Origin: Microbacterium sp. AK031
Lineage (GTDB): Bacteria; Actinomycetota; Actinomycetes; Actinomycetales; Microbacteriaceae
DNA length: 64,000 nt
NCBI RefSeq assembly: GCF_024807145.1
Contig: NZ_JANUCA010000001.1
Coordinates: 1,033,266-1,097,265 of the forward strand
Direction of reading: 5' to 3'
This document shows, piece by piece, positions 19,762 to 59,458 of the stretch. The notes beneath the pieces were generated by a model. It did not search any database and had not been told where the DNA came from. It saw only the letters and a list, made by a program, of their open reading frames with translations. Positions within the stretch are counted from its first letter, which is position 1, and each line of letters starts with the position of its first letter. Position numbers and translations under genes: made by a program.

Positions 19762-21309
19762 ATGACCGTTCCCGTATCACGCGGCCACAATCCGCTGCGC
19801 GACCCAGACGACCGTCGCCTCAATCGCATCGCAGGTCCCAGTGCGCTGGTGATCTTCGGTGTGACGGGTGACCTGTCGCGCAAGAAGCTCATGCCAGCGG
19901 TCTACGATCTGGCCAACCGAGGACTGCTGCCACCGGGATTCGCCCTGGTCGGGTTCGCACGCCGCGATTGGGAGGATCAGGACTTCGCTCAGGTCGTATA
20001 CGACGCGGTCAAACAGCACGCGCGCACAGAGTTCCGTGAGGAGACCTGGCGGCAGCTGCTGCAGGGCATCCGATTCGTCTCCGGCGAGTTCGACAACCCC
20101 GAATCGTTCGTAAAGTTGCGCGAGACCGTCGAGAAGCTCGACGTCGAACGCGGCACGATGGGCAATCACGCGTACTACCTGTCGATTCCGCCGAAGTCTT
20201 TCCCTGTCGTCACGAAGCAGCTGAAGGACTCAGGCTTGGTCGGCGATGACGACGGCGACGAGCGGTGGCGTCGCGTGGTGATCGAGAAGCCCTTCGGCCA
20301 CGACCTCGAATCGGCGCGGGATCTGAACGAGGCGCTCGAGGTCGCGTTCCCCGCGGACGCGATCTTCCGAATCGACCACTACCTCGGCAAGGAGACGGTG
20401 CAGAACATCCTCGCGCTGCGCTTCGCGAACGAACTGTACGAGCCGATCTGGAACCGCAACTACGTCGACCACGTGCAGATCACGATGGCCGAGGACATCG
20501 GGGTCGGCGGTCGCGCCGGATACTACGACGGCGTCGGCGCTGCCCGTGACGTCATCCAGAACCACCTGCTGCAGCTCCTCGCGCTCACCGCGATGGAGGA
20601 GCCGATCAGCCTCAGCGCCGAGCACCTTCGGGCTGAGAAGGAGAAGGTGCTCGCAGCGGTGACCCTTCCCGAGGATCTCTCCCTTGCCACTGCGCGCGGT
20701 CAGTACGCGGGCGGCTGGCAAGGCGGCGAGCAGGTCACAGGGTTCCTCGACGAGGACGGGATGAACCCGCAGTCGAGCACGGAGACATACGCCGCTATCA
20801 AGCTCGACATCAACACGCGGCGCTGGGCCGATGTTCCGTTCTACCTGCGCACAGGCAAACGGCTCGGCCGACGTGTCACGGAGATCGCCGTGGTCTTCAA
20901 ACGCGCACCGCAGCACCTGTTCGGCCGCGCGAACACGGCCGAACTGGGTCAGAACGCGCTCGTCATCCGCGTGCAGCCCGACGAAGGAGTCACGATCCGG
21001 TTCGGATCGAAGGTTCCCGGCGCCGGCAGCAACGTGCGCGACGTGACGATGGACTTCGGATACGGTCACGCCTTCACCGAAGCGAGTCCTGAGGCGTACG
21101 AGAGGCTCATCCTCGACGTGCTTCTCGGCGACCCGCCTCTGTTCCCCCGCCATGAAGAGGTCGAGCTGTCTTGGAAGATCCTCGACCCCGTGGAGAAGTA
21201 CTGGGCATCGCAGGACACGCCGGTCGAGCAGTACGCGCCCGGTTCTTGGGGCCCGGCTTCCGCCGACGCCCTCCTGGCCCGCGACGGACGAGTCTGGAGA
21301 CGACCGTGA
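19762..21309 (+). CDS. zwf: Glucose-6-phosphate 1-dehydrogenase
   Basis: First enzyme of the oxidative pentose phosphate pathway, making NADPH; 515 residues. The nucleotide-binding GVTGDLSRKKLMPAVYDLA near 33-51 and the active-site RIDHYLGKETVQN with its His and Lys near 203-215 are clear. GGAG lies about ten bases before the ATG, and the gene is 22 bases after pgi. Its stop overlaps the GTG of opcA, whose product is needed for G6PDH activity in related bacteria. Confidence 0.98.
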   Translation: MTVPVSRGHNPLRDPDDRRLNRIAGPSALVIFGVTGDLSRKKLMPAVYDLANRGLLPPGFALVGFARRDWEDQDFAQVVYDAVKQHARTEFREETWRQLLQGIRFVSGEFDNPESFVKLRETVEKLDVERGTMGNHAYYLSIPPKSFPVVTKQLKDSGLVGDDDGDERWRRVVIEKPFGHDLESARDLNEALEVAFPADAIFRIDHYLGKETVQNILALRFANELYEPIWNRNYVDHVQITMAEDIGVGGRAGYYDGVGAARDVIQNHLLQLLALTAMEEPISLSAEHLRAEKEKVLAAVTLPEDLSLATARGQYAGGWQGGEQVTGFLDEDGMNPQSSTETYAAIKLDINTRRWADVPFYLRTGKRLGRRVTEIAVVFKRAPQHLFGRANTAELGQNALVIRVQPDEGVTIRFGSKVPGAGSNVRDVTMDFGYGHAFTEASPEAYERLILDVLLGDPPLFPRHEEVELSWKILDPVEKYWASQDTPVEQYAPGSWGPASADALLARDGRVWRRP

Positions 21310-25424: not shown

Positions 25425-25474
25425 GAAGTGCAGAAGAGGCTCCGTCCGGACGGACGGAGCCTCTTCTGCACTTC
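25425..25474. terminator. 23-bp perfect hairpin after the lipoprotein gene
   Basis: Arms at 25425-25447 and 25452-25474 are perfectly complementary (begin GAAGTGCAGAAGAGG), with a 4-base GGAC loop. It lies 10 bases past the lipoprotein stop and probably ends transcription. No clear T-run follows on either strand. Confidence 0.65.
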
Positions 25475-25571: not shown

Positions 25572-25602
25572 CAGAAGGCCCCGTACAAGACGGGGCCTTC
25601 TG
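25572..25602 (-). terminator. Terminator hairpin of the tRNA-Asn gene
   Basis: CAGAAGGCCCCGT at 25572-25584 pairs perfectly with 25590-25602 around a 5-base loop, four bases after the encoded CCA of the tRNA. It probably ends the tRNA transcript and faces the lipoprotein terminator. Confidence 0.7.
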
Positions 25603-36879: not shown

Positions 36880-36916
36880 TTACTGAGCGGGTCAGAATGA
36901 TCGGGCCAACACAAGC

Positions 36917-36957
36917 GCCGCGACGAGGAAGGCCCTAGCTTTAGGACTCGTCGCGGC
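36917..36957 (-). promoter_or_regulatory. Attenuator-like hairpin between the leader peptide and leuA
   Basis: An 11-bp perfect stem (36947-36957 with 36917-36927; arm CCGCGACGAG plus one flanking pair) around a 19-base loop. Its first arm is the end of the leader peptide coding sequence, so ribosome position during Leu codon translation would decide whether it forms. No T-run follows, so it may act on translation or a factor-dependent stop rather than as a simple terminator. Confidence 0.65.
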
Positions 36958-36988
36958 AGCTAAGAAGAAGCAGACCGCCGAAAGGCAT
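36941..36988 (-). CDS. leuA leader peptide (15 residues, four Leu codons)
   Basis: Short frame encoding MPFGGLLLLSCRDES, with codons CTG CTT CTT CTT in a row, ending TAA 82 bases before leuA. Such leucine-rich leaders are known before leuA in actinobacteria. A TACTCT box six bases upstream of the ATG suggests that the mRNA begins at this start codon. CTT is uncommon in this high-GC genome, which would sharpen stalling when leucyl-tRNA is short; that last point is inference. Confidence 0.8.
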   Translation of the reverse strand: MPFGGLLLLSCRDES

Positions 36989-36994
36989 GGCATC

Positions 36995-37000
36995 AGAGTA
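36995..37000 (-). promoter_or_regulatory. -10 box TACTCT of the leuA transcript
   Basis: TACTCT, six bases, then the ATG of the leader peptide at 36988. Confidence 0.55.
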
Positions 37001-37093
37001 CACCCGAGCGCGCTCCACTCACCAACTCCGGTATGCGGCGAACCTGCATCCAAGAGGAATGAGACGATCGCGTCGCGGCGGACACTGAAGAGT

Positions 37094-37750
37094 ATGGACA
37101 CTGCATCCACACGGCTGGCCGCGCGCGCTGTCGCACTCGGAGCGACCTGCGCCCTCTTTCTGCTCGCCGGCTGCGCCTCTGCGCCTGGCTCTCCCGCTCC
37201 GAGCAGTTCCGATACCGGGTACAGCTTGGAGTCCCAGTCGCCGAAGCCGCCGACCGGCGACGTCATCGCTACCGGGACCGTGATCGATGCAGACGGTGCC
37301 GCGCAGCTCTGCCTCGGCGCGGTCATGGAGTCGTACCCGCCGCAGTGCGTCGGCGTTGCCCTCGAGGGATGGACCTGGAACGATGTCGAGCCAGACGACG
37401 AGTCCGGCACCACGCGATGGGGCGTCTTCGGGTTCACCGGAGCCTACGACGGCACGAGCATCACGCCAACGACTACGCCGATCCCGTTAGCGCTGTTCGA
37501 CACGATCGAGCGACCAGTGTCGACCCCCGATAACCCCGGCGCCACGAGCGAGACGGCACTCGCGGACGTCCAGGAGAAGATCAGCGATCTGCTCGATTCT
37601 CAGGTGTTGCTCGCAAGCGGCGTGGAGAACGGGTATCTGGTCGTCGATGTGGTGTGGGATGACGGCACACTGCAGAAGGCGGCAGATGCCGATTTCGGTG
37701 AGGACGTCGTCGTCATACGCTCGGCGCTTTGGAGCCCCGAGACCCGGTAG
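37094..37750 (+). CDS. Putative lipoprotein of unknown function
   Basis: 218 residues. A signal peptide ends in the lipobox LFLLAGC, giving a lipid-anchored Cys at about 27, then a Ser/Pro-rich spacer. The globular part holds two Cys (LCLGAVMESYPPQC) that may pair, a Trp-rich VALEGWTWNDVEPDDESGTTRW segment, and a mixed alpha/beta C-terminus (LADVQEKISDLLDSQVLLASG, YLVVDVVWDDG). No family recognised. Start at ATG 37094; ribosome binding site weak. Stands alone, divergent from leuA. Confidence 0.7.
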   Translation: MDTASTRLAARAVALGATCALFLLAGCASAPGSPAPSSSDTGYSLESQSPKPPTGDVIATGTVIDADGAAQLCLGAVMESYPPQCVGVALEGWTWNDVEPDDESGTTRWGVFGFTGAYDGTSITPTTTPIPLALFDTIERPVSTPDNPGATSETALADVQEKISDLLDSQVLLASGVENGYLVVDVVWDDGTLQKAADADFGEDVVVIRSALWSPETR

Positions 37751-42774: not shown

Positions 42775-42831
42775 CGGGGCGCCGGTCGGCACTGGCAGAT
42801 GCCTCAGCATCGGAGCCCAGCGATGGAAGAA

Positions 42832-42871
42832 GGGGTTCGGGGCTCTGGATCGCTCCAGAGCCCCGAACCCC
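42832..42871 (-). terminator. Terminator of the hrcA-dnaJ-rsmE transcript
   Basis: An 18-bp perfect stem (42832-42849 with 42854-42871, 4-base loop) about 20 bases after rsmE. On the minus strand it is followed by TTCTTCC. Confidence 0.8.
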
Positions 42872-50887: not shown

Positions 50888-51817
50888 ATGACTGAAATGA
50901 TGGACCCCACTGTCGAAGCGCCCGTGGCCCCGGGGCTTCCGGAGAAGTCCGACGGCAAGGCGATGTCGAAATGGACGTTGTACACGCGGCGTTTCATGCG
51001 CAACAAACCCGCCGTCGGCGGCATCGTCATCTTCCTGCTACTGGTGCTGTTCGCGATCTTCGCTCCTCTCATCGCGGAGTACGATCACATCGAGCTCGAC
51101 TTCCTGAACCTCGGGACCCCGCCGTCACTGGAGCATTGGTTCGGCACCACACCGTCCGGCAACGACACCTTCGCCCAGGTCGCGATCGGCCTGCAGCGCT
51201 CTCTCATGATCGCGGTGACCGTGTCGGTGGGAACGACGATCATCTCCGCCCTGGTCGGCACTGCAGCTGCGTACTTCGGAGGCTGGACTGAGAAGATCAC
51301 ACTCACGGTCATCCACTTCATGATGGTCATCCCGAGCTTCCTCATCCTCTCGCTCCTGTCGAACCGCTCCGGTGGCGACTGGAGAGTCATCGCGCTGATC
51401 ATGATCTTCGTCGTGGGCTGGTATTTTCCCGCGCGTGTCATCTGGACGACCGCCCTCTCTCTTCGTGAGCGCGAGTACATCCACGCGGCCCGCTACATGG
51501 GCGTCCGCGGTATGACGATCGTCGTGCGTCACCTGCTGCCGAACATCGGTTCGCTGCTCGTGATCAACTTCACCCTCGGCATCGTCGGAGCCGTCATGGC
51601 CGAGACGGGCCTGTCCTTCATCGGGTTCGGCGTGAAGATCCCTGATGTGTCGCTCGGCTCGCTGATCGGCTCTGGCGCGAACACGATCACCAGCGCACCC
51701 TGGCTGTTCTACTTCCCCGCAGCAGCGCTGACATTGCTCACCGTGTCCATGGCGCTCGTCGCCGACGGCCTGCGTGATGCCCTCGATCCCACTTCAGCAG
51801 CAGGAGGCCGCGCATGA
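50888..51817 (+). CDS. Oligopeptide ABC transporter permease (DppC/OppC type)
   Basis: Second permease, 309 residues. Residues 1-30 are polar; then RRFMRNKPAVGGIVIFLLLVLFAIFAPLIAEYD marks the OppC N-terminal helix. The coupling loop reads EYIHAARYMGVRGMTIVVRHLLPNI near 196-220. The ATG is three bases past the first permease stop. Pairs with the upstream permease to form the channel. Confidence 0.92.
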   Translation: MTEMMDPTVEAPVAPGLPEKSDGKAMSKWTLYTRRFMRNKPAVGGIVIFLLLVLFAIFAPLIAEYDHIELDFLNLGTPPSLEHWFGTTPSGNDTFAQVAIGLQRSLMIAVTVSVGTTIISALVGTAAAYFGGWTEKITLTVIHFMMVIPSFLILSLLSNRSGGDWRVIALIMIFVVGWYFPARVIWTTALSLREREYIHAARYMGVRGMTIVVRHLLPNIGSLLVINFTLGIVGAVMAETGLSFIGFGVKIPDVSLGSLIGSGANTITSAPWLFYFPAAALTLLTVSMALVADGLRDALDPTSAAGGRA

Positions 51818-59421: not shown

Positions 59422-59458
59422 CTGAAAGAACCCGTCCCAGTGGGGCGGGTTCTTTCAG
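59422..59458 (+). terminator. Terminator of rpsT
   Basis: A 17-bp stem starting CTGAAAGAACCCG with one G-T pair and a 3-base loop, 12 bases after rpsT. The other strand could end the holA transcript. Confidence 0.8.

Follow-up and report, generated by a model that had tools for sequence, protein, structure and literature searches.

Organization of the leuA upstream region

We studied the DNA in front of a leuA gene on the minus strand of the window, i.e., the whole analysed stretch of 64,000 nucleotides. Between a likely -10 box and the gene lie a short ORF with a run of four Leu codons, a perfect 11-bp stem (P1) with a loop of 19 nt, whose 5' arm overlaps the end of the short frame, and the putative strands of a pseudoknot and of a base stem (P0), the latter predicted to join the Leu run to the Shine-Dalgarno (SD) region of leuA (Table 1). 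The leader frame has 15 codons and ends with TAA at 36943-36941, 82 nt from leuA; GATGCC separates TACTCT (37000-36995) from the leader ATG (36988-36986). Coordinates, frame, spacing of TACTCT and 11-bp stem were all confirmed on the minus strand as the initial annotation had given them. In-frame GTG codons at 37018 and 37003 could begin a longer leader frame; we preferred the ATG as the start, given how far it lies from the -10 box. A divergent ORF (37094-37750, plus strand), which we take to resemble a lipoprotein gene by its LLAGC motif, begins ~105 nt from the leader start, so that both promoters lie within one short intergenic region.

Table 1 Features of the leuA leader and of related elements. 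Positions are those of the window unless a locus is named
Feature	Position	Strand	Basis
Likely -10 box TACTCT	36995..37000	-	TANNNT spacing of 6-7 nt in leuA leaders of the family
Leader peptide ORF, MPFGGLLLLSCRDES*, predicted leaderless	36941..36988	-	Frame found in 81/81 leuA upstream regions
Sensor run CTG CTT CTT CTT	36962..36973	-	Last Leu codon CTT in 190/202 elements
Predicted anti-SD strand of base stem P0, GCUUCUUCUU (last 10 nt of the Leu run)	36971-36962	-	
Stem P1, 5' arm, GCCGCGACGAG	36947..36957	-	Compensatory changes
Stem P1, 3' arm, CTCGTCGCGGC	36917..36927	-	Compensatory changes
GGGCC in P1 loop, predicted pseudoknot 5' strand	36931..36935	-	Own versus permuted pairing
GGCCC, predicted pseudoknot 3' strand	36903..36907	-	Own versus permuted pairing
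leuA SD region, GAGAAGAAGC, 3' strand of predicted P0	36873-36864	-	
leuA, 2-isopropylmalate synthase, 584 aa	35104..36858	-	NCBIfam NF002991 and TIGR00970 above cut-off
leuCD element, same genome: leader and hairpin	L119:993-1089 (G000:C1 from ~694692)		
leuC behind leuCD element	L119:1100-2557		
leuD behind leuCD element	L119:2560-3156		
leuA paralogue pair, genome G401	L270 with L297		
leuA paralogue pair, genome G298	L271 with L291		
leuA paralogue pair, genome G316	L278 with L296		

Chance expectation and conservation of the leader

The window holds 30 overlapping matches to a perfect inverted repeat of ≥11 bp, at six places including the leader stem, against a mean of 1.75 in 20 first-order Markov resamplings of the window. 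The other repeats (loops of 3-30 nt) start at 20619, 25425-25437, 25572-25574, 42831-42839 and 59422-59424; with equal repeats at five other places, the 11-bp hairpin was rejected as stand-alone evidence. Short ORFs with four consecutive Leu codons matched four times in the window: three matches were the leader frame read from its three starts, and the fourth, at 51815, was unrelated to the leader. Such ORFs are rare, resampled sequence giving 0 or 1 of them (10 resamplings).

LeuA was used to scan genomes; of the 589 stretches confirmed, the best 80 were kept and, together with the window, made up 81 leuA upstream regions. The best 80 came mostly from Microbacteriaceae genera, a few being MAGs assigned only to wider groups and a single MAG bearing the title Acidobacteria; the closest relatives among them were Microbacterium, with LeuA ~92% identical, which makes this the likely genus of the window. 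All regions (81/81) had a hairpin and a leader frame containing Leu codons; the 3' arm was 0-3 bases off the perfect complement, and leader stop and leuA were 57 to 132 nt apart. The comparison across Microbacteriaceae proposed in the initial annotation found both frame and stem conserved, and its identification of a leucine leader before leuA held; the leader belongs to the LEU element already published for actinobacterial leuA. Because of this conservation, the hairpin alone not being special, we regard the leader as real and beyond chance.

Alignment A1 comprised 64 of the 81 leaders (17 near-identical or similar ones were omitted) and was the source of a first covariance model, which had matches in 280/296 genomes of the class at E ≤0.1. 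Some of these were weak, e.g., that in genome G010 (E 0.05), with neither leuA nor leuC downstream. A broader covariance model matched 147/149 genomes of the family at E ≤0.001. For further comparisons we used 203 elements, i.e., the 81 regions plus 122 picked from the stronger matches listed, which do not form a random sample: 94 leuA leaders of the family, 14 leuC leaders and 95 elements of other families. Excluded were weak matches with neither leuA nor leuC downstream and, by eye, no leuB-like ORF (L084, L158, L217-L219, L223-L230), weak matches in the own genome with neither leuA nor leuC behind them (L087-L089), antisense matches (L085, L086), repeat fetches of one element, and L116. Alignment A2 contained 66 diverse elements chosen from the 203.

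Putative leaderless start

In the initial annotation the mRNA seemed to begin at the leader ATG. The motif TANNNT was found 6-7 nt before an in-frame start in 93/94 leuA leaders of the family (mean of 1.9 in shuffled upstream sequence), in 14/14 leuC leaders (0.3) and in 49/95 elements of other families (2.3), and transcription is predicted to start at or beside the ATG at 36988. SD-like 4-mers preceded the leader start in 1/93 cases; they precede leuA itself in only 37/94, so the missing leader SD is weak evidence. The -10 spacing fits the proposal, and on this sequence evidence a leaderless start is predicted, to which the lack of an SD adds little. The Leu run resembles the anti-SD of 16S rRNA; an SD of the leader's own would therefore hardly be usable, and leaderless initiation would be useful here.

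A promoter consensus scan requiring a -35 box found no promoter at the window leader. Forty-three elements had no box at 5-8 nt from the start; by eye, many have one a few nt higher up, which would mean a very short 5' leader. In four elements of one family (f29: L109, L112, L211 and L215) 9-12 nt, and not 6-7, separate a -10-like box from the leader start, a spacing that suggests a 5' leader of a few nt.

Stem P1 and the predicted pseudoknot

Among the 66 chosen elements, five of the 11 pairs of P1 change on both sides, in 51 cells where shuffles averaged 12.2; none of 500 shuffles reached 51, and slid controls gave at most 11 cells. Further pair types in the same 66 elements were not above shuffles (272/500). 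The outermost pair was unformed in 53 of the 66, and the ten inner pairs were all formed (10/10) in 194 of 203 elements. Own pseudoknot strands scored 17.6 versus 15.4 for permuted ones in the 95 elements of other families (0/1000 permutations) and 13.0 versus 12.4 in the 94 leuA elements of the family (0/300); the 14 leuC elements alone gave no significant result (136/1000). Striking single pairings are GAGGGCCAC with GTGGCCCTC and GTCAGCCA with TGGCTGAC.

Complementarity between Leu codons and the leuA Shine-Dalgarno region

GCUUCUUCUU in the Leu run and GAGAAGAAGC in front of leuA are complementary over 10 bp in the window, and the minimum-energy fold, computed on a piece beginning 2 nt inside the ORF, contains both P0 and P1; a point against the mechanism proposed below is the modest z-score of this fold, only -1.73. 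For 95 representatives of less than 82% identity, own P0 pairing averaged -11.70 kcal/mol versus -10.18 kcal/mol when permuted (0/2000 permutations), and the 14 leuC elements alone gave -11.33 versus -10.1 kcal/mol (15/2000). Within the leuA leaders of the family the result varies with clustering: 148/2000 with 14 representatives, and 19, 26, 5 and 1 of 3000 at four other cut-offs. Seventy-four disjoint pairs of nearest relatives differed on both sides; own pairing was better in 46 of them and swapped pairing in 20, the other 8 being ties (binomial p=0.0009). Compared with the mean over foreign SDs, own SDs paired better in only 111/179 leaders.

CTT, the codon that closes nearly every Leu run (Table 1), is otherwise seldom used: in 81 leuA genes just 2.0% of Leu codons are CTT. 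As the number of CTT codons in a leader rises, GAAG-type SDs become more frequent and GGAG-type SDs less so (correlation 0.56, n=94, uncorrected for kinship). When the Leu codons were redrawn by genomic usage, mean SD occupancy went from 0.708 to 0.62, the own value being higher in 134/185 leaders. By these sequence comparisons, the spelling of the Leu codons co-varies with the SD of leuA.

Ribosome position and SD accessibility

The ribosome footprint was assumed to span 12 nt on the 5' side and 15 nt on the 3' side of the first P-site base, and the folds contain no pseudoknots. When the A site holds the first Leu codon, the footprint ends before the P1 arm (mean of 0.1 nt covered, n=94); when it holds the last one, the footprint extends ~5 nt into the arm. 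The segment under a ribosome stalled at the Leu codons is thus the Leu run itself, which in silico can pair with the leuA SD. The initial annotation had the stalled ribosome directly open the stem; this found little support, as the footprint at the first Leu codon misses the arm, and stem opening as the main event was rejected since the arm is reached only at the last Leu codon.

In the window, the SD had a mean probability of being unpaired of 0.009 in the free RNA and 0.003 when a ribosome occupied the start codon. A ribosome at the first Leu codon raised it to 0.64; the value was 0.34 for the last Leu codon and 0.008 for the stop. Mean values in the 94 leuA leaders of the family were, in the same order, 0.26, 0.43, 0.58, 0.44 and 0.33; the 0.43 at the start codon means that a ribosome there also partly opens the SD. 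In 64/94, a ribosome at the first Leu codon brought a gain above 0.2. The gain was modest in 77 leuA leaders of other families (0.30 free to 0.41 at the first Leu codon) and weak in the 14 leuC leaders (0.46 to 0.53). Judged by these accessibility values, the case for the model is strong in this genome, moderate across the family and weak outside it.

Copies at leuCD, leuB-ilvE and leuA paralogues

A second strong element of the same genome, outside the window, has the leader MRRVFLLLSGRDETSN and lies directly before leuC and leuD (Table 1). Its leader is predicted to be leaderless, with a Leu run and a hairpin as at leuA. A match before leuC was present in 14/14 genomes of the family examined, and 99/149 family genomes had at least two covariance-model matches. 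Eleven had three, and 30 of their 35 matches were inspected, all 30 lying before leuA, a leuA paralogue or leuC. The genes behind the 203 elements were leuA in 180 cases, leuC in 14 and leuB in 9; three of the 180 leuA-type genes are a distant homologue (25-29% identity). Some family genomes have a second leuA paralogue with a LEU element of its own, ~55-58% identical to the window LeuA (pairs in Table 1).

In other families the scaffold also precedes leuB-ilvE, where it carries Val/Leu/Ile codons, e.g., MRSVFVLIDCRGEA, MARQLVILSSRGEFR and MRFVLILRCRDGA; a tenth leuB-type element, L302, has the leader MRQVLVLITCRGGA. An ilvE homologue follows leuB in 9/9 loci with enough sequence, and a citramalate synthase homologue is present in three. 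The leuB and ilvE products were above the NCBIfam cut-off, and the citramalate synthase, truncated where the sequence ends, scored 446 versus a cut-off of 450. P0 was not supported in the leuB-type elements (own -9.4 versus permuted -9.7, n=8); their output step may therefore differ. In the own genome, leuB was absent among the listed model matches, and by eye no such leader was seen in its upstream sequence. Seven leuB loci compared by eye (L231-L237) have a short ORF between leader and leuB (20-42 aa by the starts chosen) with a related C-terminal stretch, e.g., ALQEAMDRRDNGG; it may encode a small protein of the leuB-ilvE operon that has escaped annotation.

Proposed mechanism and alternative explanations

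The most likely explanation in our judgement, with a probability of about 0.63, is that the LEU element is a leucine-dependent translational attenuator whose Leu codons are at the same time the predicted anti-SD. When leucine is plentiful, the ribosome would complete the 15-codon peptide and depart; the Leu run would then pair with the leuA SD, held in place by the 11-bp stem and the pseudoknot, and leuA would be off. When leucine is scarce, the ribosome would pause on the first Leu codons, shielding the run but leaving the stem untouched, so that the leuA SD would be open and leuA on. The favoured mechanism differs here from the initial annotation, in that the stalled ribosome would free the SD and not open the hairpin. 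Its parts visible at the sequence level are the ORF, the stem, the complementarity of the pseudoknot and P0 strands, the co-variation, the missing T-run and the leuCD copy; we infer that initiation is leaderless, that the ribosome stalls and in which direction leuA is controlled.

The adjoining of a control-codon leader peptide and a strong hairpin could also indicate transcription attenuation, in which the peptide would select between a terminator, atypical intrinsic or Rho-dependent, and an antiterminator. Such a mechanism has been proposed for Mycobacterium and Corynebacterium ilvB leaders (excerpts of PMC13236596 and PMC10272879), and 36/203 elements have at least five T within an 8-nt segment downstream of the 3' arm. 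We nevertheless regard it as unlikely, since co-variation favours SD pairing, a terminator scan of the window leader found none, and TTTT within 16 nt after the 3' arm occurs in just 5/203 elements. An intrinsic terminator at the leader was rejected on the negative scan, the absence of a following T-run and the same 5/203, and the initial suggestion of control other than simple intrinsic termination agrees with these counts, the T-rich 8-nt segments notwithstanding.

Less probable still is that the RNA serves as the binding site of a regulatory protein, with the peptide of little importance, as in the DEAD-box proposal of Seliverstov 2005. The compact conserved pseudoknot would suit such a ligand, and codon mutations in S. 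coelicolor (cited in PMC1262725) oppose classical attenuation; changes of Leu codons would also break P0, however, and this could explain the odd results with those mutants. The control codons, moreover, match the operon, being Leu before leuA and leuC and Val/Leu/Ile before leuB-ilvE, which speaks for sensing by the ribosome and against a codon-blind protein ligand. That the leader acts only by translational coupling or re-initiation, or through mRNA stability, with no SD masking, is very improbable: the leader stop is close to leuA in the window (82 nt), but the distance varies among the 81 regions (57-132 nt), and the P0 co-variation argues against it.

The translational attenuator could be part of a wider scheme, to which we give about an even chance: a portable leader-peptide-pseudoknot module controlling the branched-chain amino acid (BCAA) regulon across Actinomycetes, with Leu codons at leuA, its paralogues and leuCD, and Val/Leu/Ile codons at small-ORF-leuB-ilvE. 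The sensor codons of leuA and leuCD would be the anti-SD, and a leaderless start would permit an anti-SD leader without an SD of its own. If so, sensing and output at leuA and leuCD would use identical nucleotides.

Comparison with known systems

No known Rfam family (T-box, riboswitch or leader) was found at gathering score, the window scan giving only tRNA elsewhere; over the leader there was one sub-threshold match (E 1.8, 6 bits). The LEU element was described upstream of leuA in most Actinobacteria as an ORF with a Leu run, a pseudoknot and a base stem between Leu run and SD (Seliverstov 2005, PMC1262725), in a genome set including Leifsonia xyli, also of the Microbacteriaceae. The window agrees with all three features, GGGCC/GGCCC being the predicted pseudoknot. 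The 2005 text reports the element at leuA and one transposase gene, proposes an alternative hairpin on the same base stem and prefers a protein ligand (PMC1262725); it left the mode of regulation open because leader codons were present and other attenuator parts missing. Here the element was also found before leuCD and leuB-ilvE, and the base stem was tested on many more sequences.

For Streptomyces lividans, excerpts of PMC8079986 report leuL1, MRFGLLLLSCRGEGL, before leuA as leaderless and without a typical terminator, so that both properties are already published for a leuA leader. The window leader, from another genus, shares with it the position before leuA and the absence of a typical terminator, and may resemble it in a leaderless start; no SD-pairing test for leuL1 was found in the excerpts of PMC8079986. 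Leader peptides also precede leuA in C. glutamicum and C. diphtheriae, according to excerpts of PMC5784534, PMC4046766 and PMC3890552. The mycobacterial leaderless polycysteine short ORFs (Canestrari et al. 2020) are attenuators in excerpts of PMC13236596 and PMC9094748, the former terming the mechanism translation attenuation; common to them and the window is a short ORF, in the window only predicted to be leaderless, with a run of the sensed codon, there cysteine and in front of other genes. The ilvB attenuators of Corynebacterium and Mycobacterium, described in excerpts of PMC10272879 and PMC13236596 as transcriptional, also have BCAA codons in a short ORF, but end in an intrinsic terminator that is absent here. 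A full-text literature search, with most subscription journals outside its scope, gave no published description of the leuCD and leuB-ilvE copies that we recognised among the papers listed.

Added here are the co-variation test of Leu codons and SD, the leuCD copy and the leuB-ilvE scaffold with Val/Leu/Ile codons. Together, co-variation, footprint geometry and the leuB-ilvE codon swap give the LEU element a concrete, testable mechanism, and suggest a common switch of the leucine regulon (leuA, leuCD and leuB-ilvE) that is not confined to leuA; this is relevant to the production of amino acids by actinobacteria. In erm-type translational attenuation, a drug-stalled ribosome on the leader ORF frees a masked SD; a stall would likewise free the SD of leuA, but here the ribosome would be stalled by amino acid shortage instead of a drug.
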